Source: Scedosporium boydii
Lineage: Eukaryota; Ascomycota; Sordariomycetes; Microascales; Microascaceae
DNA length: 21,467 nt
Assembly: GCA_002221725.1 (NCBI GenBank)
Contig: NJFT01000373.1
Location: forward strand, 1-21,467
Direction: 5' to 3'
The stretch's first letter is position 1. Every line of letters begins with the position of its first letter. This document shows positions 877 through 18,121 of this stretch, piece by piece. The notes beneath the pieces were generated by a model. That model did no database searches, was not told the origin of the DNA, and saw only the letters and a program-made list of their open reading frames with translations. A program made the position numbers and the translations under genes.

Positions 877-2060
877 CTATAATTTATAACGGTAGAAGCC
901 ATGCCCACTCTTCACACCTAAGCGGCCACTCCGGAGCAAGCTTTGGAGATACTCTCTCGGCTCGCTGGGGATGTTCCCCCGCGCGTCGGCATAGTGCTGT
1001 TCGATATCTAGAACAACATCCAAGCCCACAACATCCATCAACTCGAACGGACCTTTGGGTGTCTTCAGCACTCCCTTGAAGATGGCGTCAATCTCCTTGG
1101 GTGTCGCGACGCCTTCAGAGGCCGCGAGGAGGGCTTCCCTCTTGATCGCGGCCCAAATACTAAGAGCTGTTAGCCGTAGCTTTTGGGAGAGACAAACTGA
1201 CTCCGAGGGCAAGAGAAGGATAGTTGACAACCCACCGGTTGTAGAGGTAACCCATCGAGGGGGTCTTCACATGGAAAGGCAAGAAGCCGTGGGCTTTGCT
1301 TCTATCCAGTACGAGGGTGATACATGATGGGTCTGTTGTCTCATGGCCCATTACCTCGAGTTCTAGGCGGGTTGTCAGCCTGGAAAGTTGCCGCGTTATA
1401 TTCCAAACTTCTAGATTTCGCTTACCTGGTGTTTCTGGAGGCCAGTCTAACCGGGGTTTGTCCTCTCCGCTTAGCGACGTGGTTCATATTCCACCGGGCC
1501 GTTCCAAGTACTTACATGAATGAGCACTGAGAAACCGCCGTTCATTCTTCAAGGTCAAGGTTTCCAAAATCTCCGAACAGGTGTAGCTGCTAGAATTCGA
1601 GGCAATGATGACTTCGTCGGCGGCAAGAGAATCGAGCTCCGCGATGACCTTTCTCTTGAGCTGAAGTTGTTCGGGAACGCACTACCCAAGTCAGTACTAC
1701 CCAACATTAAGATTTTCTTTTTCCACCTTTTCCTCACCTCCACAACTAGCCATGCTGTTTGGAGAGCAGCACTCAAGTCGTCCGGGAAATGAGTGACGAT
1801 CTCGCCCCATCGGCGAGGTTTGCGAGAAGCCGCAGATCGGAATCCTTCTATGACTTTATGACTGCCCTCAAGTTGGCTGGCTTGAGCATCCACCAAATGA
1901 ACATCATGCCCCGTGCTAGACCACTACGAGTAAGTGTATGAGAATCTAAACGGATTTCCTGTAACAGCTTCGGTGTTCGTACCATGTACGCCAGACGGCA
2001 ACCTTGTGTGCCGGCGCCGACGATGGCGACAGAGGTTCGGGGGCCAGCTCCGAGCGCCAT
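877..2060 (-). CDS. 3-hydroxyacyl-CoA dehydrogenase family protein (six exons)
   Basis: Exons, from the start: 1983-2060, 1738-1923, 1516-1681, 1426-1446, 1236-1362, 877-1159, giving 286 residues in one open frame. It should oxidise a 3-hydroxyacyl-CoA or a related 3-hydroxy acid with NAD. The N-terminal Rossmann fold has GAGTQG at about residues 15-20 and an acidic residue after strand 2 (VHLVDAQ), favouring NAD over NADP. ASNSSS lies near 115-120. H142 and E153 fit the catalytic His-Glu pair. The C-terminal helical domain carries IWAAIKREALLAASEG and DVVGLDVVLDIE and ends in GVKSGHGFYRY. Length suits the single-function short form. Introns are 53-76 bp; intron 2 has a CTGAC branch site just before its TAG. 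Exon 4 is only 21 nt but is needed to keep frame and the conserved WPPETP. The start is the first Met before the glycine motif. Two TCGGATCCGA palindromes lie 176 and 287 bp upstream. The substrate cannot be told; carnitine-like or lambda-crystallin-like relatives are possible. Confidence 0.9.
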
Positions 2061-2235: not shown

Positions 2236-2245
2236 TCGGATCCGA
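2236..2245. promoter_or_regulatory. TCGGATCCGA palindrome, copy 1
   Basis: A perfect 10-bp palindrome made of inverted CGG triplets two bases apart (CGG-AT-CCG). It lies 176 bp upstream of the dehydrogenase start codon. Zn(II)2Cys6 dimers bind paired CGG triplets, and a gene for such a protein is next door. The flank reads TATCGGATCCGACTT, shared with the copy at 9813. Binding is inferred. Confidence 0.6.
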
Positions 2246-2346
2246 CTTCTGTGGATCTTCCGCTGAACTGCACTACGTCTCGTGGCTTGGTTCGCATTCC
2301 TTGGCAATTTCCCTCCCCACACTTCAAGTTTGGGGAAAAACGCCCG

Positions 2347-2356
2347 TCGGATCCGA
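2347..2356. promoter_or_regulatory. TCGGATCCGA palindrome, copy 2
   Basis: A second exact copy, 111 bp from the first and 287 bp upstream of the dehydrogenase start codon. Paired sites in one promoter fit cooperative binding by a Zn(II)2Cys6 regulator, but that is inference. Confidence 0.6.
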
Positions 2357-2846
2357 TCACTCGGTAAGCGCCCAAGACATTTCCAGCTTGGTACAGGTAA
2401 CACTATAAACACCGGGGCGTTTTTCCCATCAGCCCGTGAGAGACACGTCAGAAAACTTCTTCCGCACTGCGGAAACCCGAAGGTGGTATTGGATGTAATG
2501 TCACATACCCGGGACGCCGTTCGAGCGGGGAGCCACGACTAGGATGTGTTATGCGTTGTAGTGCATCTACTTCTCATCTTAAGCGAGACGTGAATATATG
2601 TAAGATAGCACCGATCCCACGTAGTAGCTTGTGGACCCGAGGGTCGTGTGCAGCATTTGGGCTGGTACGTGGCTCACTGGACTGCAGCTAGCCGCAGCTG
2701 AGCTTCGCGCTTCGCCATGTGCGATATTAAGCTTATATTGTGTTGCTTTACGTGGATACCTTGGGTATGGTACCGTGATAAAGCAGAAGATACCTTATGT
2801 TACATAGATATTTACATATATGTAGTAATTGACAATAGCTCTACAG

Positions 2847-5098
2847 TCAAATGCGGTCTGGCATAGTAGAAGAGAACTTGACTCTGGCAGCCTGCACAGA
2901 TTTCGAGCTCTGGGGCAGGTGACTCAAAGTGAGCTCCAGCGTCGACAAAAGGCTCCGATATGTTTCCTCGGCGATTTTCCCGACGCCAAAGTCGCGATCG
3001 ATAGCTTTGCGCATCAGTTGCACACCCGCCACAACATGGTGAGGATACGGGTCGATCGACAGCAGAGGGACGATGCGAGTCGGACTGCCGACGAGCGCCA
3101 TCTCCGAATCGGAGTCTCGTTTCAGAATCACCGTCGTGTGGAGGCCAAAAGCCAGAGTGTTCATCACTGTGATTTCCGTATTGCTGCTTATCTCTGCTAG
3201 ATCCGCGAGCAGATCGTGGCGATCTGTGGCCTCGATGACGTCGACGAGCATGAGTATGCTGAGATGATAATGAAGCATGAGGGAAACTATACTTTGATTA
3301 ATTTCATTAATTTCCGACGCCATAATCGACTAGACTTTTGTGTGTGTGTGTATATATATACCACTTACACCAGCGTAGTTTCGTCTGTTGACCGAGAAAT
3401 TGCAACCGTTTGTGGCATTCGTCGAGCGGCTGACGATAGATGGCGTTGAACTCCCTAATTGAGTCGAGGACAGCGGTGAACGCCCGGCGCACCTCAGACT
3501 CGCTGTGACCATCTCTGACGGCCTCCTTGAAGATGGCCGTCAACTTCCACCCAAGGAGCTTCCAAGAAGCTCCGGCGGCGATGATCTGGTTCGCCCTCTC
3601 GTCGTTGATCTCAACGTTTTCTCGACGCCAACTGTCCGCGGTTTCCCTAAACACCTTGGAACACGTCCTGACTAGCCGCCAGGGGAGCTCGTGCTCGAAG
3701 CCGAACAGGCCCGAAGAGAGCAGCGGCCTGCAGTTCAGGGTTAGCGATGCAGAGGTGTCGAAGGTCAGCGCCGCCCAGTACGCGGTGCTCTCGGCATTGA
3801 TGAATCCGGACGTATCCATCGCGTCTTCCGTCGTGGCGGGCATCCTCCTCTGGGTTTCCAGCAACGGAGAAACTTTGGAGCCGTTGAATTGGAGGTATCT
3901 TTGCCTCGCTCTCAGGGTTTGCACCTGCTGCAGCGCTGCGTGAACACAAGCTTGGCCTGAAATGCCGTCCGCCTCCTCATCCTCTGAAATGCCGGATGGG
4001 ATGGGTGTCAAGGCAAAGAGAAACAAAGACAGCATGGATCGGTAGGACGGCCGATTGATGATTCGAAGCATGTCCCTCCGAGCATATCTCCAAAGCGCTC
4101 GTACCACAGCACAGTGATCGAACCCTGGTGGGGCGCTGGGAGAGGTGACGGGTAGCCATCTTGCTGAGAAGGCGGCAATGGTGCTCTGCAGGGAATACTC
4201 GCACTTCTGATCCTGCTTGCTTTTCTCCTGCTCGTCCGTGTCGCCGGCCGCAAGGTGCTGGTCGTTGAGGGCGGACTCGGCCATCCATTGATCGAGATGG
4301 CGGCACAAGTCAGAGATGCTCACATATTTGTGGGCGAGATGGTCTTGGCCGAACCTAATAACATTGTTGGCCTCAAAACACAATTTCCCGAACCGTGTGC
4401 AAGGGAGAGACGTTTAGGTTTGCTTACGAAAATGGACAGCTGTATCTGCCCATCCATGACCCGAAAACGGCCTCGAACCATTCTCTGTAGAGTGTTTGGA
4501 GCCGATTGGAATCTACTTCGCTGAGGACACCGGCACCAGTATCCCGAGGCGTGACGATTAAGCAGGTTGGCGATGGCGGAACAAGTGGTGACGGCGACGG
4601 GTCCGAAGCTAATACTAACGTCGCCTCGCTCTCTACTTCGATGCTGCTTCTGCCGGAGACAGCGTGGAGCCAGGCTCGCGAATGTGTCTCCACTGTAACA
4701 TCAACATCCGCGCCACTGCTCCTCTGAATTGACGATGTATCACTTGGGGAATGGGATGCGACTCCACGGCGTCTCTTGCCTCGTGCTCCGCTCGACACGC
4801 CTGTTTTGACGCCTTGCAACCACTATATACACCCAGAGCCAGCCAGGAAACAGGCAGCCAAGTCAGCTGTATTACTTGAAACGTTCGTGATGAGCCTTAT
4901 CGTGGGAGGTTTTCCCTTCATAGTTCATACCCTGAATGTGCATGGTCGGTTCCGGTTGCGGCATCGGGTGCAGGGCTCAGACGACTGGCTGCTGCTGCCG
5001 GGGTTGGGAGCCGAGCCGTCGCAAGCAACACGCGATCTGCGGCATTCGTCGCAACTGGAGAACTGGGTCCTGCGTGTTACGAGCCGCCCACTGGGCAT
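2847..5098 (-). CDS. Zn(II)2Cys6 fungal transcription factor (four exons)
   Basis: Exons, from the start: 4931-5098, 4428-4822, 3369-4354, 2847-3286, giving 662 residues. Exon 1 holds the whole binuclear zinc cluster, C16-x2-C19-x6-C26-x16-C43-x2-C46-x6-C53, so the protein should bind CGG-type sites in the nucleus. The C26-C43 loop is 16 residues, much longer than the usual 5-9, and is rich in Ser, Pro and Gly. A low-complexity Ser/Arg/Asp linker (about residues 60-140) follows. The remaining 500 or so residues are mainly helical and resemble the middle and C-terminal regions of fungal pathway regulators, with RYSCPFSFGQDHL at the exon 2/3 junction and LMLHYHLSILMLVDVIEATD at the start of exon 4. 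Splice choices are fixed by frame: the last intron ends at AGTATAG, since earlier AGs put the next exon out of frame. The start is the first Met after an in-frame stop. A CGGATCCG site 105 bp upstream suggests autoregulation. Its position between two genes with the same sites marks it as the likely local regulator. Confidence 0.9.
3339..3360. repeat. (GT)n(AT)n microsatellite inside an intron
   Basis: A run of about five GT units followed by about five TA units lies within the third intron of the transcription-factor gene (3287-3368). It may vary in length between strains but does not touch coding sequence. Confidence 0.8.
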
Positions 5099-6837
5099 TC
5101 TTCTTAGGGTTTCGCTGAAGGCGGATCTTGTGATCTTGTGTGGGGCTCAATTGACGAGAAGAAAAAAAGGGATGGGAGGATGAACAGATTCAGAATCAGA
5201 ATCGGATCCGGAGAAAGTTTACTCTACTGCGGAGGCTCTTCCGCAAATTGAGGGGGGCGGTTGAGTGGGCAAAAATATACGAGAAACTTTGGGGGTCAGC
5301 TTTCGAGCCTCTCGGAACCGACAGCAGCCACGTTTTTGTCCCTTGGAATGATTGCGGGCAGATATGTGCGGGGTAAAGCTTGATCCTAAGTTTCCTCCAG
5401 GTTTCCTTAGTCTGGGACTTTGGGGTAATGATCGACATGGGTGCCATCCACATCCATCCACGCTACGGCCTAGCTGCCCCCTACCGCTGCCCGCCGACGG
5501 CAGCCATGGCCCATCACCCCCGCAGTACCCCATGTTCACAGACATCAGCGCCCTGGAGCTCGCCCTAAGACGCTCCATGACCCCCCCTTCCAGGTCCTCT
5601 TCGCCGGGAAAAGTCCGACCCGTTAGCCCGTCCTACCAATCACCAACAACAGCATCCTGTGGGCAGCATGACTTCGCATCTCTTTGCAGAAGTGGTCGAC
5701 CCACCTCAAATGACTAGAGAAGGACCTTGAATCGGCACTAAAAAAGAGGTGTGGGTGGTGGCACTGGTGGAGAACAGATCAATGTCTTCCCCGCATCACT
5801 GTGGTGCAAACCGGGTGCCCGACCGATCGGGATCAAAAGCTGCATATCGAAGGGGTCTTCGGGCTAGTGCTGTTTACTCGGCATATTATTGAAGGGGACA
5901 GATATCCCAAGGAGTCTGGTGCCTTGAATGCTATTATCGGCGCTTCTTCTACTTGCGTGATATGGAGCCAGGCGCACGGGGACTTGGTATTTTAACATAG
6001 CCTTCCTGCATAAATCTACATGAAGATATCTGGGGGTGATGGGTAGAGGGCGGACAATGTGCTCTACTCCCTTTGCTCGGCCATGCGATGCGCTTAGACA
6101 ACAGCTCAAGACCTGTAGGTAGGGGCGACAGCTTTAAAGAGGTCTCATGCATGCATATCCGTTAATTATTCTCCTCGGAATGGAATATTCGTCACACCCA
6201 TATATCGTACAGTTCTTATAATGATATTATTTTGCGGAGACAAGAATACTGATGTCTTGTCAATCCAGGTCTTCCTCTGGGTCATGTTGGTCGTTAGATT
6301 ACTCGTTGAGAGTTCAGAAAACGGCGATGACTTCACTAGCTTCTATTTATAGCACCCTGAGGCGTGAGCTATGCTCCAAGACTTCTCCTTCCACTTTTCG
6401 ATGGTAGTCTGGTCCAGATGGCGAGACCGCATGGCAGGCATACGCGCGAGCTTCCAGCAGTGAATGAGAAGACAGCAAATCTTCTCTCGTGGCGGTGAGG
6501 ACGTGAAGTTGACATTGGCTTTACGTAAATGAGAAGTTGACCAGGCTGGGGCTGAAGCGTGGTACCAAAGATTCGTCCATCATGGGCTGTTGCCATTGGC
6601 TAAGTGCATGTCGCGCCTGGCCGAATTCGATATTCAGCCACCTCCCCATCCAGAGGAGCGAGCGAATTATCACAGCACCCGCGACCGCTTCCAGCCACCA
6701 GAAGGCAGTAACCAGTGGCCGGACTACGTCGAGGCTTCCTCGGGCCGAGATACCTGTCGCTATATGCTGTCCTTGGCAATATTCATCGATGAAAAATACG
6801 CTTCCAGTACCACACCTTTACAGTCGAATGGGTCAGA
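5099..6837. other. Intergenic region between two oppositely transcribed genes
   Basis: This 1.7 kb separates the start of the minus-strand regulator from the start of the plus-strand membrane-protein gene, so it holds both promoters. A CGGATCCG element sits close to the regulator. Open frames here are short, overlap each other on both strands and show no family motif. An unrecognised decayed gene cannot be excluded around 6370-6840, where several frames stay open. Confidence 0.5.
5202..5211. promoter_or_regulatory. CGGATCCG element upstream of the regulator (9 of 10 palindrome bases)
   Basis: TCGGATCCGG keeps the full CGG-AT-CCG core with one outer base changed. It lies 104 bp upstream of the transcription-factor start codon, where feedback control by the gene's own product would act. 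That the regulator binds it is inference. Confidence 0.55.
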
Positions 6838-8838
6838 ATGACGGCGACAAGAAGCCAGGACGAGAACGGAGCAGCAAATGCGCTACCTAGGGAGCCGCCA
6901 AAAAGGCGTTTTTGGATTCGCGGTGTCAGCTGCGTTATCGCACCTCCGGTTATCACTGGCTATTATATCTGGACCTATGCTCAGTTCATTCACGCCTCGA
7001 AAGCCGGTCGGGACGAGAACTCGCCAACTCCCGATGGGAGACATATCTGGTGGTCGTGGTTCATTCTTGGAGCTTTGGGGTTGAACATCTCCGAGTATGC
7101 TCTTGCAGGTGTTGAGGCGGGTATGCTCACGGTACCCAGGTTCGGGGCCTTGAATGTCGACCAGCTGCTTCTGCACCGGGATAGATCTTGGAGCAGGATA
7201 AGTGAGTGGCCGAACGCGGTGCTGTTGGTGTTTAGAAAATGGAATCGATTGCGACTGGCAACGTCGCCAGTGTGGCTCCCTCTCTTCGCAGTCAGCGTAT
7301 TATCCTGGGCATTTCCACTCACTGGTCTCACGATGGACACTAAAGATGCCTTCAAACCGGGACAAGTCCGAGGAGTGAATGTTGTCGGCGCTAACGAAGA
7401 GACCTTCAATCATCGAAATGCTACAGAGATGCTCGCTGCCGCCTACAGAATATGGGGCAAGCGAGAGGAGGAAGCTCTCCCAAGAAATGCGGTGTTTTAC
7501 TCTGAGCATAGGACTGGAGTCTTCAACATATCTGGAGGGAACACCCTTTCGCGGAGTGCCGAGGAGCCGATATTTCTTGCCCCGCAGGCCGAACTCCCAG
7601 TCCACGGTGAGAAAGCCTGGGGTCTGTTGTGCAAGTATCGCTGCGAGATGGTTACTGAGCTCGCCAGATTTGAACTCCTGAGCCGACGCATAAACTCCTC
7701 GGCGGAGAGCTCTTATCTCTACGGCCCCAAGGAGGGAGCCTGGGATGATCCAAAACTCAGCAAGTTTCGGTACCCGCCTCCTCACGTGTTCTATCGCATC
7801 GCCGACCACCCTAAAGCTACTATATCTGTACTCAGCTTAACAAGTGAAGGTGCCGTCCTAGAGATTGCCCTCAGCCAGGGAATTGAAGCCCTTCGGAGCG
7901 CCGAGCGCGGTTACACGACAGGGTCCTGGTGGGACGAGGATATCCTTGAGGCTGTGCTGTGGCAGGACCCCAGGAAGTGGTTATTCGAAGAATCGCTGTG
8001 GTATAGAAATACGATCATTGACTTAGAGGGAGAGTATTTTCTTCGAAAGAAAGTCGGGGGCACCCCCAACACCCCTCTTTGGGCCTACGGCGTGCAGTGC
8101 AAATCTTCTTCAGCGGTTGGCACCGCAACACTCGATGGTTTCTCGGGGACATTCCGCGATTTTCAACCTGGAGGAGTGCCTCTTTACCGTGTAGTGGAAG
8201 GGGGGTCGGTGAGAGTCACACAAAGTTTACCTCGTTTGGGAAACGCCGTTCCAGCCATGTTCCTCCCGGGGTTCGGCGCAGAGATAAACGAAACGCTGCA
8301 GTACGAACGCTATCGTAGGCTGATAGCCAAGGAAGATGAGCCAATATCAACTAACTTTACGTACTTTGAGGTACCTAACCCTGGGGATGTGCTGAGTGAC
8401 CTTTTCTTGGAATGGGAGGATACTCTTAGGGAAGTGGCGGGGCTACGTGGAGAGAGAGCATTCACCACCGACCAATCCACTATTACACTACTGTGGTCAC
8501 TGGCCGCCTCTGACCTCCAGAGTGTACTCGAAGCGGTATACAGAGCGAATGCTCTAGCACTCATGTATCACGATAGAGCCGCATTTGGTAATTCGTGGTT
8601 TCATGAGTGGCTGAGACCTGCGGAGCCCTGGGCGCAGCTGGTGCCCGTGGAAGGTTCGAAGGGCATGCCAGTCGTCCTCGTGTTAGTGATGTTGATACTT
8701 TGGGCGTTGGGATGCATGATTCTCGGTATCATTTACGGGTTTAGGGAGAGATGGGACGCATATTTCACCACACGGAGTATGTATTGGTATTGTGTTAAAC
8801 TCGCTGGAGTCGATCCAGTCGAGGTGTTCGGATCCTGA
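6838..8838 (+). CDS. Membrane protein of unknown function with a large, probably luminal or extracellular domain
   Basis: One uninterrupted frame of 666 residues; the family is not recognised. Hydrophobic segments at about 28-48, 70-93 and 143-165 come first, and a strong one at about 609-633 lies near the C terminus. Between them is a hydrophilic domain of about 440 residues. It has five N-glycosylation sequons (NAT at 194, NIS at 230, NSS at 286, NET at 484, NFT at 506) and many tryptophans. C265 and C269 could pair. The sequons suggest this domain faces the secretory lumen or cell exterior, with the short tail after 633 in the cytoplasm. An odd number of N-terminal segments, with a cytoplasmic N terminus (PPKRR just before segment 1), agrees with that. 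The first Met follows a short leaderless N terminus; no better start was seen. It is separated from the MFS gene by 1.65 kb and has no CGGATCCG site upstream, so it need not belong with that gene. Confidence 0.75.
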   Translation: MTATRSQDENGAANALPREPPKRRFWIRGVSCVIAPPVITGYYIWTYAQFIHASKAGRDENSPTPDGRHIWWSWFILGALGLNISEYALAGVEAGMLTVPRFGALNVDQLLLHRDRSWSRISEWPNAVLLVFRKWNRLRLATSPVWLPLFAVSVLSWAFPLTGLTMDTKDAFKPGQVRGVNVVGANEETFNHRNATEMLAAAYRIWGKREEEALPRNAVFYSEHRTGVFNISGGNTLSRSAEEPIFLAPQAELPVHGEKAWGLLCKYRCEMVTELARFELLSRRINSSAESSYLYGPKEGAWDDPKLSKFRYPPPHVFYRIADHPKATISVLSLTSEGAVLEIALSQGIEALRSAERGYTTGSWWDEDILEAVLWQDPRKWLFEESLWYRNTIIDLEGEYFLRKKVGGTPNTPLWAYGVQCKSSSAVGTATLDGFSGTFRDFQPGGVPLYRVVEGGSVRVTQSLPRLGNAVPAMFLPGFGAEINETLQYERYRRLIAKEDEPISTNFTYFEVPNPGDVLSDLFLEWEDTLREVAGLRGERAFTTDQSTITLLWSLAASDLQSVLEAVYRANALALMYHDRAAFGNSWFHEWLRPAEPWAQLVPVEGSKGMPVVLVLVMLILWALGCMILGIIYGFRERWDAYFTTRSMYWYCVKLAGVDPVEVFGS

Positions 8839-9333
8839 TGTGGTCATCTCGGGTACTTGCACGGCAGCCATTCGTTTGTGCTTTGCTATATAATCTACTA
8901 GCGATTTCAGTCACGATGAACTTCAGTCACTTCATGATTTATGAATCATGTCCTACCCCACATCGGTAGAAGGTCTGCGTGACCGTGCTTGCACTCGATG
9001 CTCAAAACGGTTAGTGTGCTAGTGTGGGCGAGCACGAAAAAAGAGGGTATTTGTCTCCTGAAAGAGGAAATGGGTTCAGTTAAGGTCGGAAATCTTCTTC
9101 TCGTGGCTGGGCTATAGCACTCGGGGCTTAGCTGCAAGCAGGGTTAGGGTTCCCTCATTCCGCTTTAGAGATCGAAGTTGGGCTCGACGGTCGTAAAAAA
9201 AACAAGGCCGTCCACCTCAAACGAAATGAGATGGCGAGTCCTAGTACGCCATATTTCTTTAGATCCCCTACCTCCGAGGCCCAGGACACGCCTGGCGGGG
9301 GACCTTTGTTAAAGACCTTCCCAATTGGGTTCT

Positions 9334-9360
9334 GAGTGAGACGAGTGAGACGAGCGAGGC
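9334..9360. repeat. Three 9-bp tandem units (GAGTGAGAC-like)
   Basis: GAGTGAGAC occurs twice in a row, followed by the imperfect unit GAGCGAGGC. No function is evident. Confidence 0.7.
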
Positions 9361-9513
9361 GCCAGGCGTGGAGGCCAACTTGTGGGGCAGCGAGTGGGTT
9401 GCTGCAACAATGGTATCGGCAGTGGAGAAGTAGTCGAAAGTAGTCGACTGCCCGCATTTTTGGTTGTCTAACCTGGCCTAGCCCTGGCCTGGGCTGACGG
9501 TCCAGATCAATCG

Positions 9514-9530
9514 GATGCGATGCGATGCGA
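9514..9530. repeat. Three GATGC tandem units
   Basis: GATGC is repeated three times directly, followed by GA. It is a short low-complexity tract in non-coding DNA. Confidence 0.7.
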
Positions 9531-9731
9531 CTTCAAGCTCTTCCACGTGGCGTACCGTACCGATCATGTCAAACTGGTCAGGCCGTCAGCCACGGAAGAA
9601 GGGTTCGCCCGAACTACCCCATCTGGGACCAGCCAAAGGAAGCCTTTTCCTCGATTGGGAAGTACTTCGTAAAATCAAGGCAATCCATGGGTTCTTGCCC
9701 TGAAATTCAGTCGTTGGAGTCGTCCAACAGA

Positions 9732-9741
9732 TCGGATCCGA
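9732..9741. promoter_or_regulatory. TCGGATCCGA palindrome, copy 3
   Basis: Exact copy, about 750 bp upstream of the MFS transporter start. It is followed within 20 bp by three GGATC motifs (CCGGATC, AGGATC, AGGATCC), which may be partial half-sites. Confidence 0.55.
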
Positions 9742-9812
9742 TGCCGGATCAGGATCAGGATCCCTGTTCATTGCGACCCACCTTGGATGTCGACGTCGTT
9801 GTGCTGGGATTA

Positions 9813-9822
9813 TCGGATCCGA
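9813..9822. promoter_or_regulatory. TCGGATCCGA palindrome, copy 4
   Basis: Exact copy, about 670 bp upstream of the MFS transporter start and 81 bp after copy 3. It shares the longer context ATCGGATCCGACTT with the copy at 2236. Confidence 0.55.
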
Positions 9823-10102
9823 CTTGCATATCCTGGGGCCGCCAAAAAACCAAAGAAGATGCCGACGATGTGTTAGTGTTGAGTTCGTGGTGTGATGAGT
9901 GATACAATTTAGAAGATAATGGGCTGGTTGATAATAATTCTGTTGAAGCTTACGCGGACCCGTGCTCCGTATGGTCGAGGGGGTAATCGGAAGCAGGAAT
10001 TTAAGGAGGAAGGGCCACTTTAACGTGAGTATCTCCAATCGAGTTTGCCCTGTTCTGTGCCCTGTGTGTGAGATGGAGCCGCACAATTTCTGCTGGATGA
10101 TA

Positions 10103-10112
10103 TCGGATCCGA
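10103..10112. promoter_or_regulatory. TCGGATCCGA palindrome, copy 5
   Basis: Exact copy, 380 bp upstream of the MFS transporter start and the closest of the three to that gene. The spacing is reasonable for an upstream activating site in a filamentous fungus. Confidence 0.6.
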
Positions 10113-10266
10113 GACCTCCCCTGCGGTGTTGGTGTCTGGCGCTTTCGCCACGGAAACCGCCGGATGTCTTTCCACCAAATTGCCGGTCTCGACGCCGAAC
10201 CCCACAACATCATCCCTTCAACGCGTAGAAATTTGCGGGGAAAAATATGGGGTAAGGGTTAAGGTT

Positions 10267-10306
10267 GTATGGGGTAGTATGGAGCAGCATGGGGTAGCAT
10301 GGGGAG
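10267..10306. repeat. Four 10-bp tandem units (GTATGGGGTA-like)
   Basis: Four imperfect 10-bp units (GTATGGGGTA, GTATGGAGCA, GCATGGGGTA, GCATGGGGAG) lie 190-225 bp upstream of the MFS start codon. They sit between the nearest palindrome and the gene, so they may be part of the promoter or 5' leader. Role unknown. Confidence 0.75.
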
Positions 10307-10491
10307 CCTTTCGAAGCATACTTAAGACCTTCGATATCCCGTTCATCCATCCCTTGGGATCGGCAGAGGGTTTCAAGCTCAATAATACAGAGGCACCGGG
10401 TCTCTTCCTAATACTACTTAAACTTGCCTTGCCCGATATCCTTCAGCTTTTTCCATCTCGAATCTACGTGCCAAATCGACCACCGATCATC

Positions 10492-12415
10492 ATGGCGTCG
10501 CATACGCCTTCCGACAAGAAATCTGACCCTGCGGAGACTACGCCTGACCACAACTCTGACGGCTATGGAAAGGGAGAAATTGCTTATATCGATGCAGCCG
10601 AAACGACGCTCGAGTCGTTCTCCCATCTCGATGAGAAGAAGATTCTGCGCAAGGTATGTTGGCGTTGTCGCAGCTCCCGATGGTTGTTTTGTTTGGCTTT
10701 GGTTCTCACAAGCTCGTCTAGATGGACCTTCGACTGATTCCATTACTCGCTCTTCTCTACCTGCTGTCTTTCCTCGACCGTAAGTCGAATAGAACACCCA
10801 CTTTACGGAAACGCCCTTTTGTCTGACAGAATCATTCCTCAGGTGGAAATATCGGAAACGCCAAGATCGAGGGCCTTCAGGAAGATCTCAACATGAAGCC
10901 CGATCAGTATAACTGGTGCCTCACCGTTTTTTTCTTTACCTACGCCGCCTTCGAAGTCCCTTCGAATCTACTTCTCAAGAAGCTCCGCCCGAGCATTTGG
11001 CTTCCTACTATCATGGTCGCATGGGGAGTCGTGATGACTCTGATGGGCATCGTGAAGAACTATCACGGGCTACTAATTGCACGCATCTTCCTCGGCGTCA
11101 CAGAGGCGGGATTGTTCCCCGGTGTTGCTGTCAGTTTGCCCCATCCTCATATCCCCTCCAATGAGTAAAACTGACGTTCATTCCCTCTTAGTACTATCTC
11201 ACCATGTGGTATTGCCGTCACGAGATCCAATTCCGCCAGGCCCTATTCTTCTCAGCCGCCTCCATCGCCGGTGCCTTCAGCGGTCTCCTCGCCTTCGCCA
11301 TCGCCAAGATGGACGGAATCGGTGGACTAGAGGGCTGGCGCTGGATCTTCATCCTCGAGGGCATTGCCACCGTCCTCGTCGCAGTCATGTCCTTCTTCGC
11401 CCTTCATGACTTCCCAGAGACGGCGAAATTCCTTACCGAGGAGGAGCGCGCGTTCGTCGTTTACCGGTTGAAATATCAGAGCCAGATCAGAGGCCAGGAA
11501 CAGGATGGCCACGTCCGCGTCCCTGAGGCCGACGAGTTCAAGTGGGCGTATGTGTGGAGTGCGTTCAAGGACTGGCAGCTTTGGGTTAATATCTTTGTCT
11601 ACTGGGGTGTAAGTGACCTACGGCTCACCTAACATTCATTCGTCCATGATACTAATAGGTCCCAGATTGTCTGCCCGCTCTACGGCATCAGCCTCTTCCT
11701 TCCAACCATCATCCGAAGCCTCGGATACACGAGCAGCAAATCCCAGCTTATGACTGTTCCTATTTACGTGACGGCCGCCATTCTAGCAGTGATAGTCGCC
11801 TGGACTTCGGACCGCGTTGGAAAGAGAAGTCCGTTCATCATTCCACTTCTGTGCGTCATGCTCGTTGGTTTCGCCATGTAAGTTATATCTGGAAGCGCGC
11901 TCTCTCATATAAACCCTTAAGCTCCAGGCTAATCATCTCTCCATCAGGTCCATCTCCACTAGCAATCCCAAGGTCGTCTACGGCGGTGTCTTTATCGCAG
12001 CTTGTGCCATCTACCCTGCCTTTCCCGGCTGCATCGCCTGGCTTTCGAACAACTTGGCTGGAAGCTACAAACGAAGTGTGGGAATGGCGCTTCAGATTGG
12101 TATTGGTAATCTTGGCGGTGTAAGTGCGATCTTAGATATAGACTTCGAGGAAACATCACTAACAGGGGGTTGTTTTAGGCCATGGCCTCCAACTTTTACC
12201 GGCAGAAGGATGCCCCTCGATACATTACCGGACACGGCTTGGAGCTTGGCTTCATCTGCGCCGGCATTCTTGCCTGCTTCATCCTCATCTTTGGATACAG
12301 TCGCAGTAACAAGAGTCGTGAGAGGCAAATGGCTGCGGGGGCCGCTGACCAGTATAGCGCTGCGGAGTTGTCGGCGAAGGGTGATAAGGCTGTGACCTGG
12401 AGATATATGTACTAA
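10492..12415 (+). CDS. MFS transporter, anion:cation symporter (Dal5/Tna1-like) family (seven exons)
   Basis: Exons: 10492-10653, 10722-10779, 10843-11129, 11192-11608, 11666-11877, 11948-12119, 12179-12415, giving 514 residues, the usual size for this family. It should sit in the plasma membrane with twelve spans and move a small organic anion or vitamin-like acid with protons. Family marks are YLLSFLDRGNIGNAKIEG (about 67-84, end of span 1), RIFLGVTEAGLFPGV (about 154-168, span 4) running into YYLTMWY, and GWRWIFILEG in span 6. WTSDRVGKRSPFI follows span 8. The N terminus is a 50-residue polar cytoplasmic tail. All introns are 56-70 bp with GTAAGT-like donors except GTATGT and GTCAGT; exon 2 is only 58 nt. 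The ATG context ATCATCATGGCG is favourable. Three TCGGATCCGA palindromes upstream tie it to the dehydrogenase and regulator. The substrate cannot be deduced. Confidence 0.92.
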
Positions 12416-14573
12416 TAGTTTCTTGAGAGTTTGGAGACTTATATTCATTGAACTGATCGAGACGGACGAAGGCACCGCCAACGATCGGGTCTTCAAGGAC
12501 TAACAGGTGCGGGATCCAAGCATGCCTTTAGCTCATAAACCACAGTTTTTGTGCGCCTCGATGTTCCTTTAGACTCCCCGGTAAACAGTTAATTATCGCC
12601 TTGATTTCTCAAGTTGAGTTATATCTTATCGCCCCTTCGTCGACTGGTTCGGGAGGAGCATCATTCCTGGTCTTGGTACTCTCTCTTTTCCTATGGCTTG
12701 GCAATGCGGTGCATCGTTGATATATGGCCCAACTATACTGCCGATATTGTTTAAATTCAACCTTACATGGCATAACAGCTCAAGGTGGGGAGAGTATCTT
12801 CCAAAGGCTACGTAGCCTATAGGCCTCCAGGTTCTTTCCCGCTGTTTGAGAGAGGCAACTTCCAATATACGGCTGCGAGGTATTTGGTTGCCTTATTCTA
12901 CTATCGCACCTAACTCCTCTTGGTGGCCGCACACCCATCGCCTACTTCTTAGCTGCAGAGACGATTTTGGGACGTCTAGGGATAGCATCGTTTCCCTCTT
13001 ACCTTCCAAACTCTACATCCTAAGAGCGTATTATGAATAAAATATTACCGATCTGTAGGGTGACCCGGAAATATTAGCGTTTATAATACCCCAACGACTA
13101 GGAGGTCTTTCGCTCATAAGTGTGGATTAATACCACGATTTTATGCCAAGGGTGTTCTGACCTCGTTTCTTCACATGGCGTACTTTGTCCTCGAACGACA
13201 TATTTAAGACGAGTGATGAGAGTTGGTGTATATCAACTACTTTATGATGGGTATTTCTATTTATATATTATTGTGAGTTTCTAATGTTGAGGACCCCAAA
13301 GCGACTATGGCTCCAGTTTTGGATCTTGCCAAGCGATACATGAGATCCCGGACAGACACACACAAAGAATCTGATTCCTTTGAGATCTTTGGGTAATGTA
13401 AAACGCCCAATATAACTATCTCTCTCTTTTCCGGGAATTTTATATTTAAATTTTTGTCTAATATATAGTGTCCACAGAACCACCGCCCTTGTATTCACGA
13501 ACACCTCCTAGACTATAGACCTCGAAAGGTTGGATTCGGAACAAGGACAACTGACGGTGACACCGGGGAAGTAGCCCTACTTCGTCATCAAGGATCGAGC
13601 CTCCGTTTTTTTCCGAGCATTTTACTTTGCAGACTATCTTATTCAGTGCCATCTCTGTGGCACCAATGATCTTTGGTATTTGACTCCAGGATGAACCGGG
13701 ACTTGGGTGCGAATACCTGAATATTGGATTATGGGCTTTGTTCTACCAACTGCTGGTCGGCGGTGGGTAGGGCCCGGCCGCGTATTTGGGTGGTCTCTGC
13801 TGCAGAACGAGCCCATGTACTTTTCTCGATAGTAATTTAAGTTGAGCCATGAGTCGATTCTTACTTCCCCTCTGCGCTTTGCCAAGTCTCTATTTCCGGA
13901 ATAGCTTCTTTCTCGCCCTAGTATTCAGTTAGGAATGCGGGCCAAGATGAGGAAGGATCTGGGCCAAGATAATACGCTTTGATGCTCGATCGCTCTGAGG
14001 AACCTTTGGCTTTCGTGACTCTAGAAACTTGCGGATGAAGAACGGCTCTTATGAGCGTAATAGCACGTCCCTGATGTAGGGCTTTTACTGGGTCTTATTG
14101 AGTTGTTTTGCTGCAACTATAGCTGTAATTAAATGGGGAACTAGCAGCTAGGAACCTATTAGCTGATCGAGTGTTCGTTGGCAGGGGCGTTCACTTGAAC
14201 GTTTAAACCGACTAATGTCTTCAATTTAAACTGGGCATTAGTGTGTCGTCCAGAATCCTTCGAGGCCTGAACTCGTCCTCCAAAGAGCAGCCTCATTCCG
14301 TATAACAGAATCTAAATTTATGGCCGCTCGGGCCATTCCAGTCTCGTTTCTGAGTTGTATAATACTAGGCAAGCGAGTATATTCTCGGGGCTAATACTAC
14401 CATGCTAGTTTCCATTGCATGCCAAGCGATGTTCTGAGATCTCTGTTGGCTTATAATAACTTCTATGCATAGGTCGGCATTTAGAATCCGACCGAATTCG
14501 GAAATATGCCTATTGCCACCAGAAACAACGCCAAGTTGACAGCCAGTCTGGTCGGAGCAGCGGCATGGTGACT
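12416..14573. other. Gene-free, partly AT-rich stretch
   Basis: About 2.2 kb with only short, motif-free open frames on either strand and several AT-rich tracts (for example around 13250-13470). A GGGCCAAGAT motif occurs twice near 13937 and 13960. No tRNA, rRNA or transposase remains were recognised. It may be old decayed sequence, but nothing identifies it. Confidence 0.5.
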
Positions 14574-14783
14574 TTATCGAGTGGCGGCCTCGATGGCCTT
14601 TTCAGTGCTTTTGTCGAGTGCTTCAACTACATCGACGCCGGCAGGAGATATGATTACAACTGCGAGATTCTTATCGCCAAGTTCTACATCCACGGAAACG
14701 CAAAGTTGCGATCCTTTGCATTCTACGTGATGACACGATAGTTGCATTGCGCATCCTTGACTGAGTTTGTCTTTGTTATTCAT
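14574..14783 (-). CDS. Possible small protein of 69 residues, hypothetical
   Basis: A short ATG-to-stop frame in an otherwise empty region. The translation looks more protein-like than other small frames nearby. It has four cysteines in the first 30 residues (C12, C17, C22, C28), then a strand-like stretch (SVDVELGDKNLAVVIIS), and ends in a charged amphipathic helix (VVEALDKSTEKAIEAATR). No signal peptide, known domain or intron was seen, and no partner gene overlaps. It could be a real small intracellular protein, the last exon of a decayed gene, or chance. The family is not recognised. Confidence 0.3.
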   Translation of the reverse strand: MNNKDKLSQGCAMQLSCHHVECKGSQLCVSVDVELGDKNLAVVIISPAGVDVVEALDKSTEKAIEAATR

Positions 14784-15259
14784 AGAGGGTCAAGGACGAA
14801 GCAAGGCAGTCGACACGAATCGAAGTTTAAATTTCGAAGATGATAAGGTGAAAAGGCGAAAGTAGTCGGCCCGGTTCCAAAACCATAGAGTTGCCCACTA
14901 GAAACAGAATAGCACTTTTTAGTATACTAAATTTAGTGCTTGCCCCTCAATTTAATAAAGGAACACTAGCTCTGATCAAGGGCAGAGTAATTCCCGAAAG
15001 TATGCTGCCAATTTGATCATCTTCTCTGACTTAAACTCCCGTGAGCTCTCGAAGCAGCTTGGCCGATACGGCTTTCCTAAAGAACCGTGGACTTAACTTG
15101 CGGCAAGATAGCTACTGTAACATAGCCCAACGTGCAATTTAATATCAACCAAGTTTCTATCCTCCATCGGGCTTACTAGGAGTCTATGCTATGCTACCTG
15201 CTGGGCTCTTGGAATCAGAATAGCAATGATCCAGACCAATTAGCCAAGCGGGTTTTCTC
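14784..15259. other. Intergenic region downstream of the AAA ATPase
   Basis: No gene seen. It contains the AT-rich inverted-repeat structure at 14911-14940 and the 3' flank of the AAA ATPase gene. Confidence 0.5.
14911..14940. repeat. AT-rich inverted repeat (hairpin-forming)
   Basis: A perfect 14-bp palindrome TTTAGTATACTAAA (14918-14931) is flanked by AGCACT on the left and its complement AGTGCT on the right, offset by two bases. It could be a small transposon terminus or a hairpin. No matching second end was found by eye. Confidence 0.5.
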
Positions 15260-17659
15260 TCATCTGCCAGAGGGTGATGCTTGATCACCCGAGTTGATAA
15301 ACTCGTCCACCTCTTTTCTTGCGTCATCATCCAAATTTCCTGTCGCGATATCTAAAACCTGCTTCAGGTTTGCCAAAGAGAGAGAATCTCTTTCCTCTGA
15401 CCCAGTGAAAAGTTTTAAGACGTGAATGACATTCTTAATAGTCCTCCCATCCATGTCCAGCTCGGCTAGCCCTGCAAAATCATCTCTAGAGAGAGCGTCT
15501 GAGCCCCATCCTCCCTTCTCTATCTCCCATCGCCATATGGCTTCCTTTTCGGAGGCGCTAAGTTTTCCGTACTCAATAGAAACGTGGATGCGGGAGTAAA
15601 ATGCTGGGTCAAAGTCTTTTCGGCGGTTGGTCGTGAGAATGACTATCCCAGATTGATATTCAAGCAGCCTAAGAAGCACTAAAGATCATAGTTAGAAACG
15701 CTGGCACTGACGACAACTCGACCACCCAAATTTCAAACAAACAAGCTTATACATACCTGAGACCATGGCATTCCTCTCCAGGCTGTCATCTGCTCTCTTG
15801 GCCATGAAGGCGTCTGCCTCGTCAAACAGCATGATGGCTCCCCACCGAGTGGTTCGATCGAAAGCCTTGAGCAGCCGGCTCTCGACTTCCCATGTTTCTG
15901 TTCCGAGATCGCTACCGCTTACACGGTATAGAGGGAGATGTAGAAGTTCCGCAACACACTCTACAGATGAGACGGGTCAAAGTCAAAAAAAGTGGTCCGC
16001 AACTAGCGATGGATGGATATCTGGCAATGAGCACATACCGGCCGTTAGAGTCTTTCCTGATCCCGAGAGGCCATATAGAAGAATCAAGAGTCCCCTTCCT
16101 TTATTCTCAATCTGGTAATCAAACTGCTCGGACAGGAAAGAGAACCCTGATGTAACCTGGAGGACTGATCGCATCCTATGGGACGATTGCCGGATATGCT
16201 CCGCTCGATCCTCCTCCCAGACGATTGATGTGAACCCATCGACCTGGAAATATCCTGCGTCCTTGGTGACAAGAGAGTACCCCGCAATCCTGGACGGAAA
16301 CGTCATGAGCTCGTCGGGTGTGAGAGACGTCACGTCGACATCTCGGAGGTGGTCGGGGGCTTCGATTGGGGCGTTTGCGTGGCTATTGCTACTTTCACTG
16401 TCACTGTCACTAGCACCGCCAGCATCAGACCTAGAGTTATAAGATTTCGATCGTGCGTTTGAAAGGGAGCTGGCGATGATGCGCTTCGCGAATATTCCGT
16501 GCTCATTGATGAAACCAACGGGATCAATCATAACGCGACCGGCGATCTGCTTGGCGGTCAATTTCCACGGATTTCTGAATCAACGCCGTGAAATGGGGGA
16601 AAATCCTACAGTTCTCTCCGGAGCGTCAAAGAATTCACATCCTTTTGTCTCCCACCTCACGCGCTGAATCCATATGGAACCGCAATATGTCATATGGGTG
16701 GGAGCACCGAGGCCCTTGGCGTTTCGGCACAGTTCAATAAACGCCTTTCCCCTCCTCACAAGGTCTTCGACCGTTTCGGCACGGTCGGCACAGTAGGCGA
16801 GAGGATAAGCTGGAAGCGCAGAAATTGCGACCTGACCGACAAAGGCCGGAAATTGAAACACTTCCTCAATGGCACCAAAACGCCCTCTTTCAAAGGTCAT
16901 ATGCAGCACCTTCAGACACCAGTTTACATTCCCGTCTGCGTCCTTCTTGTTAAAGAAGGAACGCAATACCCCACACAGCGTCTCGAATCGCCCGCCGGTG
17001 TCTTGCCGACGTAGTAGCACATGCTCACCGGGCTTGAAAATGGCCCATAGGTAGTCCATCGAAATTTGACCGGCCGATGTCAGTGACTCGATGCCATCAA
17101 TAGCTCGACCTAGGGACTCATGCAAAAAATTTTCGAGAGTATTAATCTCTGTTTTTAACCGCTTCTCTTCTGAGATGGGCAGGTCTGCAGCGGCGGCGGT
17201 GGCTGCAATTTCTTCGCGAAAATGATAGAGCTCGTGGTAAGGCGCCTTGACGACGATGGGGCTTGCATGGATATTCAGAGTGCTGAGATGGGGGCAAACC
17301 GCGCGAATGACGTTCTGGAGCAGATCGGACTGGATCTCCAGCTCCAGGACGGGCTTCTTGTCCTTGTGGACGTTTCGACGGAGGAGCAGGGAGTTGGGTC
17401 CGAATCGCTTGTTGACAGTGCTCCTCGGCGCAGCTATCTGATCCGTCAGGTGGCAGTCACCGGGTTCGCTGTCAGAGAGCCAGATTTGCGTAATGTCGCA
17501 AAGCCGGCCGTTGAAAGTCGGGCCATTGCTCGTTTCGGTGGGGTCGCTGTCGATGTTGCTACCTGTTTCACGCGGTCCACCGAGCCGCAAGTCCGCGTAC
17601 AAAGAGAAAAGAGCGGGGGAGGAGGTGGTCATTATTATAAATGAAGGCCTTCCTCCCAC
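15260..17659 (-). CDS. AAA ATPase of the fungal DUF7025 type (four exons)
   Basis: Exons, from the start: 16656-17659, 16039-16574, 15757-15960, 15260-15678, giving 720 residues. Residues 1-330 match the N-terminal region of large fungal AAA proteins: a helical stretch, then DYLWAIFKPGEHVLLRR (about 195) and a beta-rich part. A Ser/Asp-rich linker (SDSDSESSNS) lies near 385. The ATPase core is at the end: Walker A GLSGSGKT (503-510), Walker B AIMLFDEADAF (555-565, D560, E561), sensor 1 in ILTTN (N599) and a candidate arginine finger in AFYSRIH (R611). So it should hydrolyse ATP, probably as a ring, to remodel a protein partner; the partner is unknown. Intron 1 uses a weak donor, GTGGGA; it is the only choice found that keeps frame. 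The other donors are GTATGT. The Met at residue 10 (17632) is an equally good start. It shares a 462-bp divergent promoter with the 825-residue membrane-protein gene. Confidence 0.85.
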
Positions 17660-18121
17660 AGGGATGCCAGTAGGAAAATCGTACGCCTTTTGCTCTTTGG
17701 TGGAATTTAAAGTAGGCTGGAGTTATTTGAAAGAGAAGTCCCAGCGCGTTGGTTCAGGGTGAGAACCGGGCCGGGGCGAGGTAACCCGACCTGGCTTGAG
17801 GAACGATTCCGACCTGGAAATGCATAATTGGAGAAATGTGCGGCGCAGGCCATTTTCCACTTTCCAGGGTCAGGGAAATATAAATATGTGACCGTTTTTC
17901 ATTCGATAGGACGTGACGGGCGATAATTGGTCGCAATTGCTGCATCCTGAAGATCCGTGGAGGCTTGGGCAGGCTCTTGCCGCTCAATACGACCCCCAAT
18001 TGGAATTTATTAAAGCGTCTGACATGCCACATCTAACGGGCTGCCTCCCGCCGCAATAGGATACATTCCTGCACCCTCGCGCCACCTAAAAAACGTCGCA
18101 GCCCGATGTTACAAGTTACCA
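17660..18121. promoter_or_regulatory. Divergent promoter between the AAA ATPase and membrane-protein genes
   Basis: A 462-bp spacer separates the two start codons, so both 5' regions must fit in it. It contains no CGGATCCG element. An AT-rich patch lies at 17870-17890 (AAATATAAATATG). Shared control of the pair is possible but not shown. Confidence 0.5.

Follow-up and report, generated by a model that had tools for sequence, protein, structure and literature searches.

Clustered TCGG-N2-CCGA palindromes as candidate operators of a Zn2Cys6 regulator and its neighbouring genes in Scedosporium boydii

Six copies of a short palindrome lie upstream of three genes of Scedosporium boydii that encode a dehydrogenase, a Zn(II)2Cys6 regulator and an MFS transporter. 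These palindromes are probably the operators of the regulator that is encoded between them, in an autoregulated catabolic switch. The original prediction had interpreted the three genes as one regulon, and this interpretation is supported by our analysis of the window, which corresponds to the whole of contig C373 (21 kb, 0.05% of the genome).

Palindromes, genes and gene neighbourhood

The five exact copies of TCGGATCCGA and the TCGGATCCGG variant were all found again at the positions originally predicted, with the same distribution among promoters (Table 1). Core sites are present in the promoter of every member, two for the dehydrogenase, one for the regulator and three for the transporter, and the site of the regulator carries one mismatch to the 10-mer. 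The CGGATCCG core occurs six times in the window (positions 2237, 2348, 5203, 9733, 9814 and 10104), compared with a mean of 0.37 and a maximum of 2 in 100 dinucleotide shuffles of the window. As initially proposed, the palindromes are located outside coding sequence, since no exon of the spliced models contains any of the six. In one reading orientation, CGGATCCGAT is common to all six sites. The degenerate TCGGAACCGA is a possible second site of the regulator promoter.

Table 1. Coordinates of the palindromes and of the three associated genes in the window
Feature	Position	Strand	Description
3-hydroxyacyl-CoA-dehydrogenase-like enzyme	877..2060	-	6 exons, 286 aa; hand-spliced; PF02737 and PF00725
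TCGGATCCGA palindrome	2236..2245	.	176 bp 5' of dehydrogenase start codon
TCGGATCCGA palindrome	2347..2356	.	287 bp 5' of dehydrogenase start codon
Zn(II)2Cys6 regulator	2847..5098	-	4 exons, 662 aa; hand-spliced; DNA-binding domain nearest AlcR
TCGGATCCGG, one mismatch, CGGATCCG core intact	5202..5211	.	104 bp 5' of regulator start codon
Degenerate TCGGAACCGA (TCGG-N2-CCGA)	5312..5321	.	214 bp 5' of regulator start codon, hand-measured
TCGGATCCGA palindrome	9732..9741	.	751 bp 5' of transporter start codon
TCGGATCCGA palindrome	9813..9822	.	670 bp 5' of transporter start codon
TCGGATCCGA palindrome	10103..10112	.	380 bp 5' of transporter start codon
MFS transporter	10492..12415	+	7 exons, 514 aa; hand-spliced

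A coding origin of the 9732-10103 region was considered and rejected. A 207-aa stop-to-stop ORF across these sites has no Pfam match, and neither does a 140-aa stretch located 5' of the transporter start. The sites also fall below the coding threshold, in a weak test whose threshold catches 59% of known coding and 0.7% of intergenic positions. Transporter homologues of similar length align end to end with the protein starting at 10492.

The gene identities given in the original prediction hold by spliced models and Pfam analysis. The dehydrogenase has relatives in the PDB and homologues that are up to 94% identical. The best NCBIfam match of the transporter is a D-galactonate transporter, far below the cut-off, and annotations of some of its relatives indicate transport of tartrate or nicotinic acid. 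A second copy of the regulator was searched for in the genome and was not found. The regulator gene adjoins its presumed structural genes on the window map, with a single ORF of unknown family (6838-8838) between the regulator and the transporter. For other fungi, the neighbourhood was assessed through annotation tags and through gene models that are fused. All three genes are side by side in four annotations, and pairs of them are found in more. Locus tags adjoin for the regulator, the dehydrogenase and/or the transporter (e.g., QQS21_004404, 004405 and 004406), and among 120 listed regulator homologues (197 found), 25 are annotated as a single protein with regulator and dehydrogenase domains. 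Exceptions to this adjacency are Fusarium zealandicum, where the tags are 14 apart, and Exophiala oligosperma, where they are about 680 apart. Trichoderma atroviride IMI 206040 also has a homologue of the regulator. Viral and prokaryote sequence collections yielded no orthologous promoter.

Genomic concentration and specificity of the palindrome

All 73 exact copies of TCGGATCCGA in the 42.9-Mb genome were located. Five of them are on C373, where 0.034 would be expected at the rate of the other 68. The probability of finding at least five copies on this contig is 3.7e-10, or 7e-7 once the approximately 2000 windows of equal size are taken into account. A second exact copy is present at a distance of 290 bp or less for all five copies on C373, and within 500 bp for none of the 68 copies elsewhere. 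The genome-wide count suggested with the original prediction therefore shows that TCGGATCCGA is concentrated in these promoters.

Several genomic sites were tried as further members of the regulon and were not retained. The sites at C366:3082 and C368:18026, on two-site contigs, lie inside long ORFs (1463 and 635 aa, respectively) and therefore look like chance occurrences. The perfect 12-mer ATCGGATCCGAT has only two other copies in the genome, both inside stop-to-stop ORFs, of 1149 aa at C142:94757 and of 405 aa at C46:71352. Core pairs on contigs C34, C37, C139, C208, C306 and C317 have no exact TCGGATCCGA on the same contig. Finally, for the copy at C14:298238, which has a TCGGAACCGA partner, the nearest ORF of at least 140 aa ends about 690 bp away.

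The three upstream regions were also scanned without bias, and the top 10-mer was ATCGGATCCG (Bonferroni 1e-12). In the k-mer scan, CGGATCCG was present in all three regions (two, one and three copies; Bonferroni 6e-6). Of the seven TCGG-N2-CCGA occurrences in the window, six precede the three genes, namely the 5312 site and the five exact ones; the 5202 site misses the pattern by its last base. By comparison, inverted TCGG/CCGA arms with other spacings from 0 to 12 occur at most twice in the window and at most once upstream of the three genes. The enrichment is specific to the inverted TCGG-N2-CCGA arrangement. The density ratio of the TCGG half-site in the upstream regions is 1.30 with the palindromes and about 0.9, calculated by hand, without the 13 palindromic half-sites, which indicates that the palindrome and not the half-site is the unit.

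The regulator domain and known zinc-cluster sites

The regulator matches PF00172 with 24.5 bits, for a Pfam cut-off of 21, and of 27 homologues aligned, 25 have the full six-cysteine zinc cluster. The nearest solved domain, and top PDB match, is that of AlcR (E 3.7e-6 with the single sequence, 3.4e-10 with the 27-sequence profile). AlcR, from the ethanol regulon of Aspergillus nidulans, drives its own gene plus neighbouring genes. Both proteins have a long loop, of 16 residues, between the third and fourth cysteines, a length that ranges from 10 to 17 in the 25 homologues with a complete motif, and they share TRR-Q and CTF-WL flanks. The linker of the regulator is predicted to be disordered: in the model of the Lomentospora homologue, residues 46-150 contain no helix and pLDDT is below 50 over most of them. 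In a search for the coiled-coil helix by which Gal4-type proteins dimerise, expected directly after the zinc cluster, at most three of the four positions of a four-heptad hydrophobic repeat were found in the 25 homologues scored. A structure search with the regulator model gave no match at E<=0.001, the best one being a designed repeat protein (E 9e-3), with CBF3 entries at E 0.06-0.1. The site had been described as the classic target of this regulator class. Inverted CGG triplets are indeed present, but the label is only loosely apt because the domain is nearer to AlcR than to a textbook Gal4 dimer.

The half-site of AlcR is reported to be TGCGG (PMC12941744), whereas the repeated unit here is the TCGG-N2-CCGA palindrome. 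As a candidate operator, the AlcR half-site was rejected: the upstream regions, 3541 bp in total, contain 17 of the 86 WGCGG occurrences, and the resulting density ratio of 1.25 is not an enrichment. The site is therefore not classed as AlcR-type, and the likeness to AlcR concerns the protein domain only. The Leu3-type site GCCGGNNCCGGC, an everted CCG-N4-CGG, reportedly includes the string CGGNNCCG (PMC2930855), but Leu3 needs outer CCGG...CCGG, and CCGGNNCCGG is not seen at any of the 14 CGGNNCCG occurrences in the window; Leu3 also matches the regulator domain weakly (E 0.15). For the cluster-specific regulator GliZ, the site TCGGN3CCGA was proposed, described in that source as not experimentally proven (PMC4006717). 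It has the same arms as the site found here with a spacer of 3 instead of 2, and this N3 form occurs once in the window and never in the upstream regions, compared with six for N2. The Sef1 motif CGGnnCCGnnnnCGG is reported to include CGGnnCCG (PMC8557406); its extra CGG was seen, by eye and in both orientations, at one of the six sites (9732). TerR, the Zn2Cys6 regulator of the terrein cluster, is described as a monomer like AlcR that prefers a T before CGG and recognises CGG triplets repeated directly and separated by 5 bp; inverted CGG half-sites were reportedly not recognised (PMC4360782). Our literature search found no report of the CGG-N2-CCG geometry for AlcR-type zinc clusters, no paper on this gene cluster, as judged by titles and the beginnings of abstracts, and no paper mentioning the six locus tags searched.

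Proposed regulation and alternative explanations

We infer that the regulator would bind the unusually compact TCGG-AT-CCGA sites located 5' of the dehydrogenase and transporter genes. It probably controls itself as well, as it may bind its own promoter via the slightly imperfect site, resulting in autoregulation. It would activate rather than repress its targets. The inducer would be a small molecule. It is probably an organic acid that the transporter would import and the dehydrogenase would oxidise at a beta-hydroxyl. It is also possible, and we propose this tentatively, that an AlcR-type zinc cluster, with its long loop and no obvious dimerisation helix, does not read the TGCGG half-site of AlcR but recognises CGG-AT-CCG as an obligate palindrome whose spacer is two bases long, with two molecules about half a helical turn apart, and thereby controls an old, widespread and apparently unstudied module of organic-acid uptake and oxidation.

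Some observations count against the operator reading. AlcR reportedly uses another half-site (PMC12941744) and TerR, reportedly a monomer as AlcR is, did not recognise inverted CGG (PMC4360782). The transporter sites are distant from the start codon (380-751 bp), the imperfect site is the regulator's own, and with 68 exact copies elsewhere the motif may have additional targets or may also be used by a second factor. Such a factor, a Zn2Cys6 protein encoded elsewhere, could use the palindromes to co-regulate the cluster, the local regulator having another motif or acting on top. The copies outside the window and the different half-site of AlcR would fit this explanation. It is nevertheless improbable, as dense clusters of exact copies occur only at this locus and the genes with sites are the regulator itself and its recurrent neighbours in other fungi. 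A factor acting genome-wide should leave more multi-site promoters, but paired-pattern searches, covering gaps of 60-121 bp only, found no paired exact 10-mers elsewhere in the genome.

The three genes could also be the high-density core of a larger regulon, with single sites elsewhere marking trans targets. This reading overlaps with the best explanation, and we consider it rather unlikely in itself. Additional targets may exist among the 68 remaining copies, given that 28 are not under an ORF of at least 150 aa and that 8, for example on contigs C63 and C14, are accompanied by another TCGG-N2-CCGA at a distance of 500 bp or less. However, exact copies are not paired within this distance for any of the 68, the other perfect 12-mers are inside ORFs, and the total of 73 copies is less than twice the roughly 41 that a hand calculation predicts at equal base use. 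Functionless copies produced by chance or mutation, whether from CpG-rich palindromes, from a dispersed element or from a recent duplication at the locus, are very improbable. TCGGATCCGA is somewhat frequent genome-wide, about twice as common as its backwards-read control (73 vs 32), and stop-to-stop ORFs of at least 150 aa cover 40 of the other 68 copies. Against this stand the low probability of the clustering at the genome's own rate and the location of all six sites between gene models. The sites share 10 bp with visibly different flanks, and the 441 bases that contain three of them (9690-10130) have no match anywhere else in the genome. Membership in a dispersed repeat, named in the original prediction as a possible refutation, was not borne out for this segment, one of the three promoter regions. 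Chance or mutational clustering is strongly disfavoured.

Under the operator reading, a so far uncharacterised regulator, homologues of which occur in many ascomycetes, gains a predicted target site and target genes, and a hypothetical protein becomes a switch that can be tested. Should binding be confirmed, the reading of a CGG-N2-CCG palindrome by an AlcR-like domain would extend what is known of how fungal zinc-cluster proteins set site geometry, and a compact inducible system could be built from the regulator, its site and its inducer.

A palindrome with a two-base spacer upstream of three genes

The window holds six copies of the core CGGATCCG, against a mean of 0.37 and a maximum of 2 in 100 shuffles. 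Five copies extend to the exact 10-mer TCGGATCCGA; once the six sites are set in one orientation, CGGATCCGAT is common to them all. The positions and core count of the original prediction were thereby recovered exactly, the variant at 5202 included.

Coordinates of genes and palindrome sites
Feature	Position	Strand	Description
Dehydrogenase	2060..877	minus	286 aa; PF02737 + PF00725
Regulator	5098..2847	minus	662 aa; Zn_clus above cut-off
Transporter	10492..12415	plus	514 aa; MFS_1
ORF between regulator and transporter	6793-8838		stop to stop, 681 aa; 666 aa from 6838
Dehydrogenase promoter sites	2236, 2347		TCGGATCCGA; 176 and 287 bp before start
Regulator promoter site	5202		TCGGATCCGG; 104 bp before start
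Degenerate site	5312		TCGGAACCGA; upstream of regulator
Transporter promoter sites	9732, 9813, 10103		TCGGATCCGA; 751, 670 and 380 bp before start

Counts of all k-mers in the regions preceding the three genes (3541 bp in total, with that of the regulator cut at 6200) were compared with their dinucleotide expectation. ATCGGATCCG ranked first among 10-mers (Bonferroni 1e-12), with a count of 7 in which the fully palindromic 9732 site is counted twice. The first 8-mer, GGATCCGA, belongs to that palindrome motif as well; the second was the core itself (Bonferroni 6e-6), with the predicted two, one and three copies upstream of dehydrogenase, regulator and transporter. Among spacings 0-12, TCGG-N2-CCGA alone stood out, the spacing of the original prediction, with 7 copies in the window; 6 of these, at 5312 and at the five exact sites, precede one of the three genes. 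Everted or direct CGG repeats gave no comparable spacing peak. The top k-mers and the N2-specific peak together indicate that the repeated unit is a palindrome with a two-base spacer. Other short sequence features were seen in these regions: partial motif copies CGGATCAGGATCAGGATCC at 9745-9763, adjoining site 9732; a perfect 7-1-7 palindrome, TTCCGCACTGCGGAA, at 2460-2474, about 400 bp upstream of the dehydrogenase start, which contains AlcR-type TGCGG half-sites and has similar TTCCGC pieces at 2258 and 5239; and ATGGGG-type short repeats clustered around 10246-10311 in the transporter 5' region, ATGGGGTA being the next 8-mer in the scan after the palindrome family.

In the genome (42.9 Mb, 442 contigs, the window being one complete contig, C373, of 21,467 bases), pattern search located 73 exact copies of the 10-mer, and 32 of the backwards-read control. 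The rate of the other 68 copies predicts 0.034 in the window, where 5 are found (P(>=5)=3.7e-10; 7e-7 after correction for about 2000 windows of the same size), so the concentration anticipated earlier holds genome-wide. The DNA around the 68 was examined in stretches of 8-10 kb (18 copies), 4 kb (two) or 1.2 kb (48). All five window copies have a second exact copy within 290 bp; none of the 68 has one within 500 bp, and 40 of them lie under a stop-to-stop ORF of at least 150 aa. The contrast is tempered by an additional core within 500 bp of 2 of the 68, and an additional TCGG-N2-CCGA within that distance of 8, so single sites elsewhere are possible trans targets. When pairs of sites separated by 60-121 bp were sought, exact 10-mers were paired in this contig only; ten others (C34, C37, C54, C56, C117, C139, C208, C306, C317 and C322) held looser pairs, and there was no pair for the backwards control. 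On contig C63 near 177222, TCGGACCCGA and TCGGATCCGA stand 26 bp apart in apparently non-coding DNA, on which this regulator might act in trans. The proviso that the palindrome might belong to a dispersed repeat was not borne out for 9690-10130, the one promoter stretch searched, which has no second genomic copy.

Genes of the locus and their neighbourhood in other fungi

Domain matches to the three gene models, spliced by hand from the window, agree with the predicted dehydrogenase, Zn(II)2Cys6 regulator and MFS transporter. The solved structures closest to the dehydrogenase are a diketoreductase and L-3-hydroxyacyl-CoA dehydrogenases, and its 19 NCBIfam matches all fall well under their cut-offs. 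No second regulator copy was found in the genome; its best-matching named relatives among the matches listed are from Lomentospora and Cephalotrichum (69%), which suggests that the fungus stands close to the Microascaceae. A few of the transporter's relatives are named after a substrate, for instance tartrate or nicotinic acid. The intervening ORF (6838-8838), whose first ATG lies about 1.6 kb from site 5202, has no Pfam or NCBIfam match and, by eye, hydrophobic stretches. Beyond the transporter, a minus-strand gene at 15260-17722 has a DUF7025 domain and, in a later exon, an ATPase-like Walker A motif (GLSGSGKT, by eye); 13001-15000, without evident gene, has a GC content of 44-45%, against 48-55% in other 1-kb blocks.

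Of 197 regulator homologues found, 120 were listed, and 25 of these also carry 3HCDH domains; several are Fusarium strains or species, so the 25 are not independent events. They are either true fusions or merged gene models; in the four that were read, P0009, P0013, P0022 and P0053, the regulator precedes the dehydrogenase, the order in the window. Where both genes' locus tags were printed they were compared by eye, consecutive tags being taken as neighbours on the tags alone. Among the matches listed, regulator and dehydrogenase were one or two tags apart in 13 cases: Fusarium falciforme, decemcellulare, nematophilum, solani, lateritium and graminum, Conoideocrella, Cladophialophora carrionii, Cladophialophora chaetospira, Fonsecaea erecta, Emergomyces, Acidomyces and Malbranchea. 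The regulator (or fusion) was as close to the transporter in six: Lomentospora (006903/006902), Stachybotrys (04907/04908), Neonectria (g225/g226), F. pseudograminearum (05744/05745), F. oxysporum (009427/009428) and Conoideocrella (004404/004406), the last four accounting for all three genes. Counter-examples exist: the regulator-dehydrogenase tag distance is 14 in F. zealandicum and about 680 in Exophiala oligosperma, and in Talaromyces proteolyticus the printed contig sizes differ. In Aspergillus ochraceoroseus, granulosus, heterothallicus, pseudoustus and karnatakaensis the tags are far apart, yet the printed contig sizes agree. Dehydrogenase paralogues may lie behind some distant-tag cases; F. 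solani has a second dehydrogenase, MRS44_014732. Even so, this recurring neighbourhood supports a joint role of the genes independently of the palindromes. The transporter homologue of Fusarium circinatum, P0150, is annotated with additional GNAT-type acetyltransferase domains, a hint that one more gene may adjoin the set in Fusarium.

Known sites, mode of binding and a proposed switch

The Leu3 site, printed as GCCGGNNCCGGC (PMC2930855), and the Sef1 motif, printed as CGGnnCCGnnnnCGG (PMC8557406), both contain CGGNNCCG inside larger motifs. None of the six sites has the extra parts of the Leu3 motif, and one, 9732, has the Sef1-like extra CGG, four bases downstream, supplied by the partial motif copies that adjoin it. 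The GliZ site TCGGN3CCGA, described as proposed and unproven in PMC4006717, differs from the palindrome by one spacer base (N3 versus N2). An open-access literature search for the N2 site in five spellings matched the Leu3 and Sef1 papers plus three on algorithms; the site may be described elsewhere in print.

The solved domain nearest to the regulator's zinc cluster is that of AlcR. The gap between third and fourth cysteines is 10-17 residues in 25 of 27 homologues, the remaining two being without a complete motif, and 16 in the window protein. The Lomentospora homologue as modelled by AlphaFold (mean pLDDT 69; residues 52-146 under 50) shows no helix from the zinc cluster up to residue 151, although most of the cluster itself is also of low confidence. 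The palindrome might hold two independent regulator molecules, a reading favoured by the passages of PMC4360782 that report AlcR and TerR binding as monomers. However, the same source reports that TerR rejected inverted sites, and half-sites showed no enrichment in the upstream regions (partly hand-counted). These half-site counts instead favour recognition of the paired half-sites as one unit.

In the simplest account, the locus is probably an autoregulated catabolic switch. The analysis shows the sites, where they lie and how they are concentrated, the gene families and the recurring neighbourhood; binding, activation, autoregulation and the substrate are inferred. The transporter would take up an organic acid, which the dehydrogenase would oxidise; the regulator would sense a metabolite and, through the palindromes, drive all three genes, its own included.
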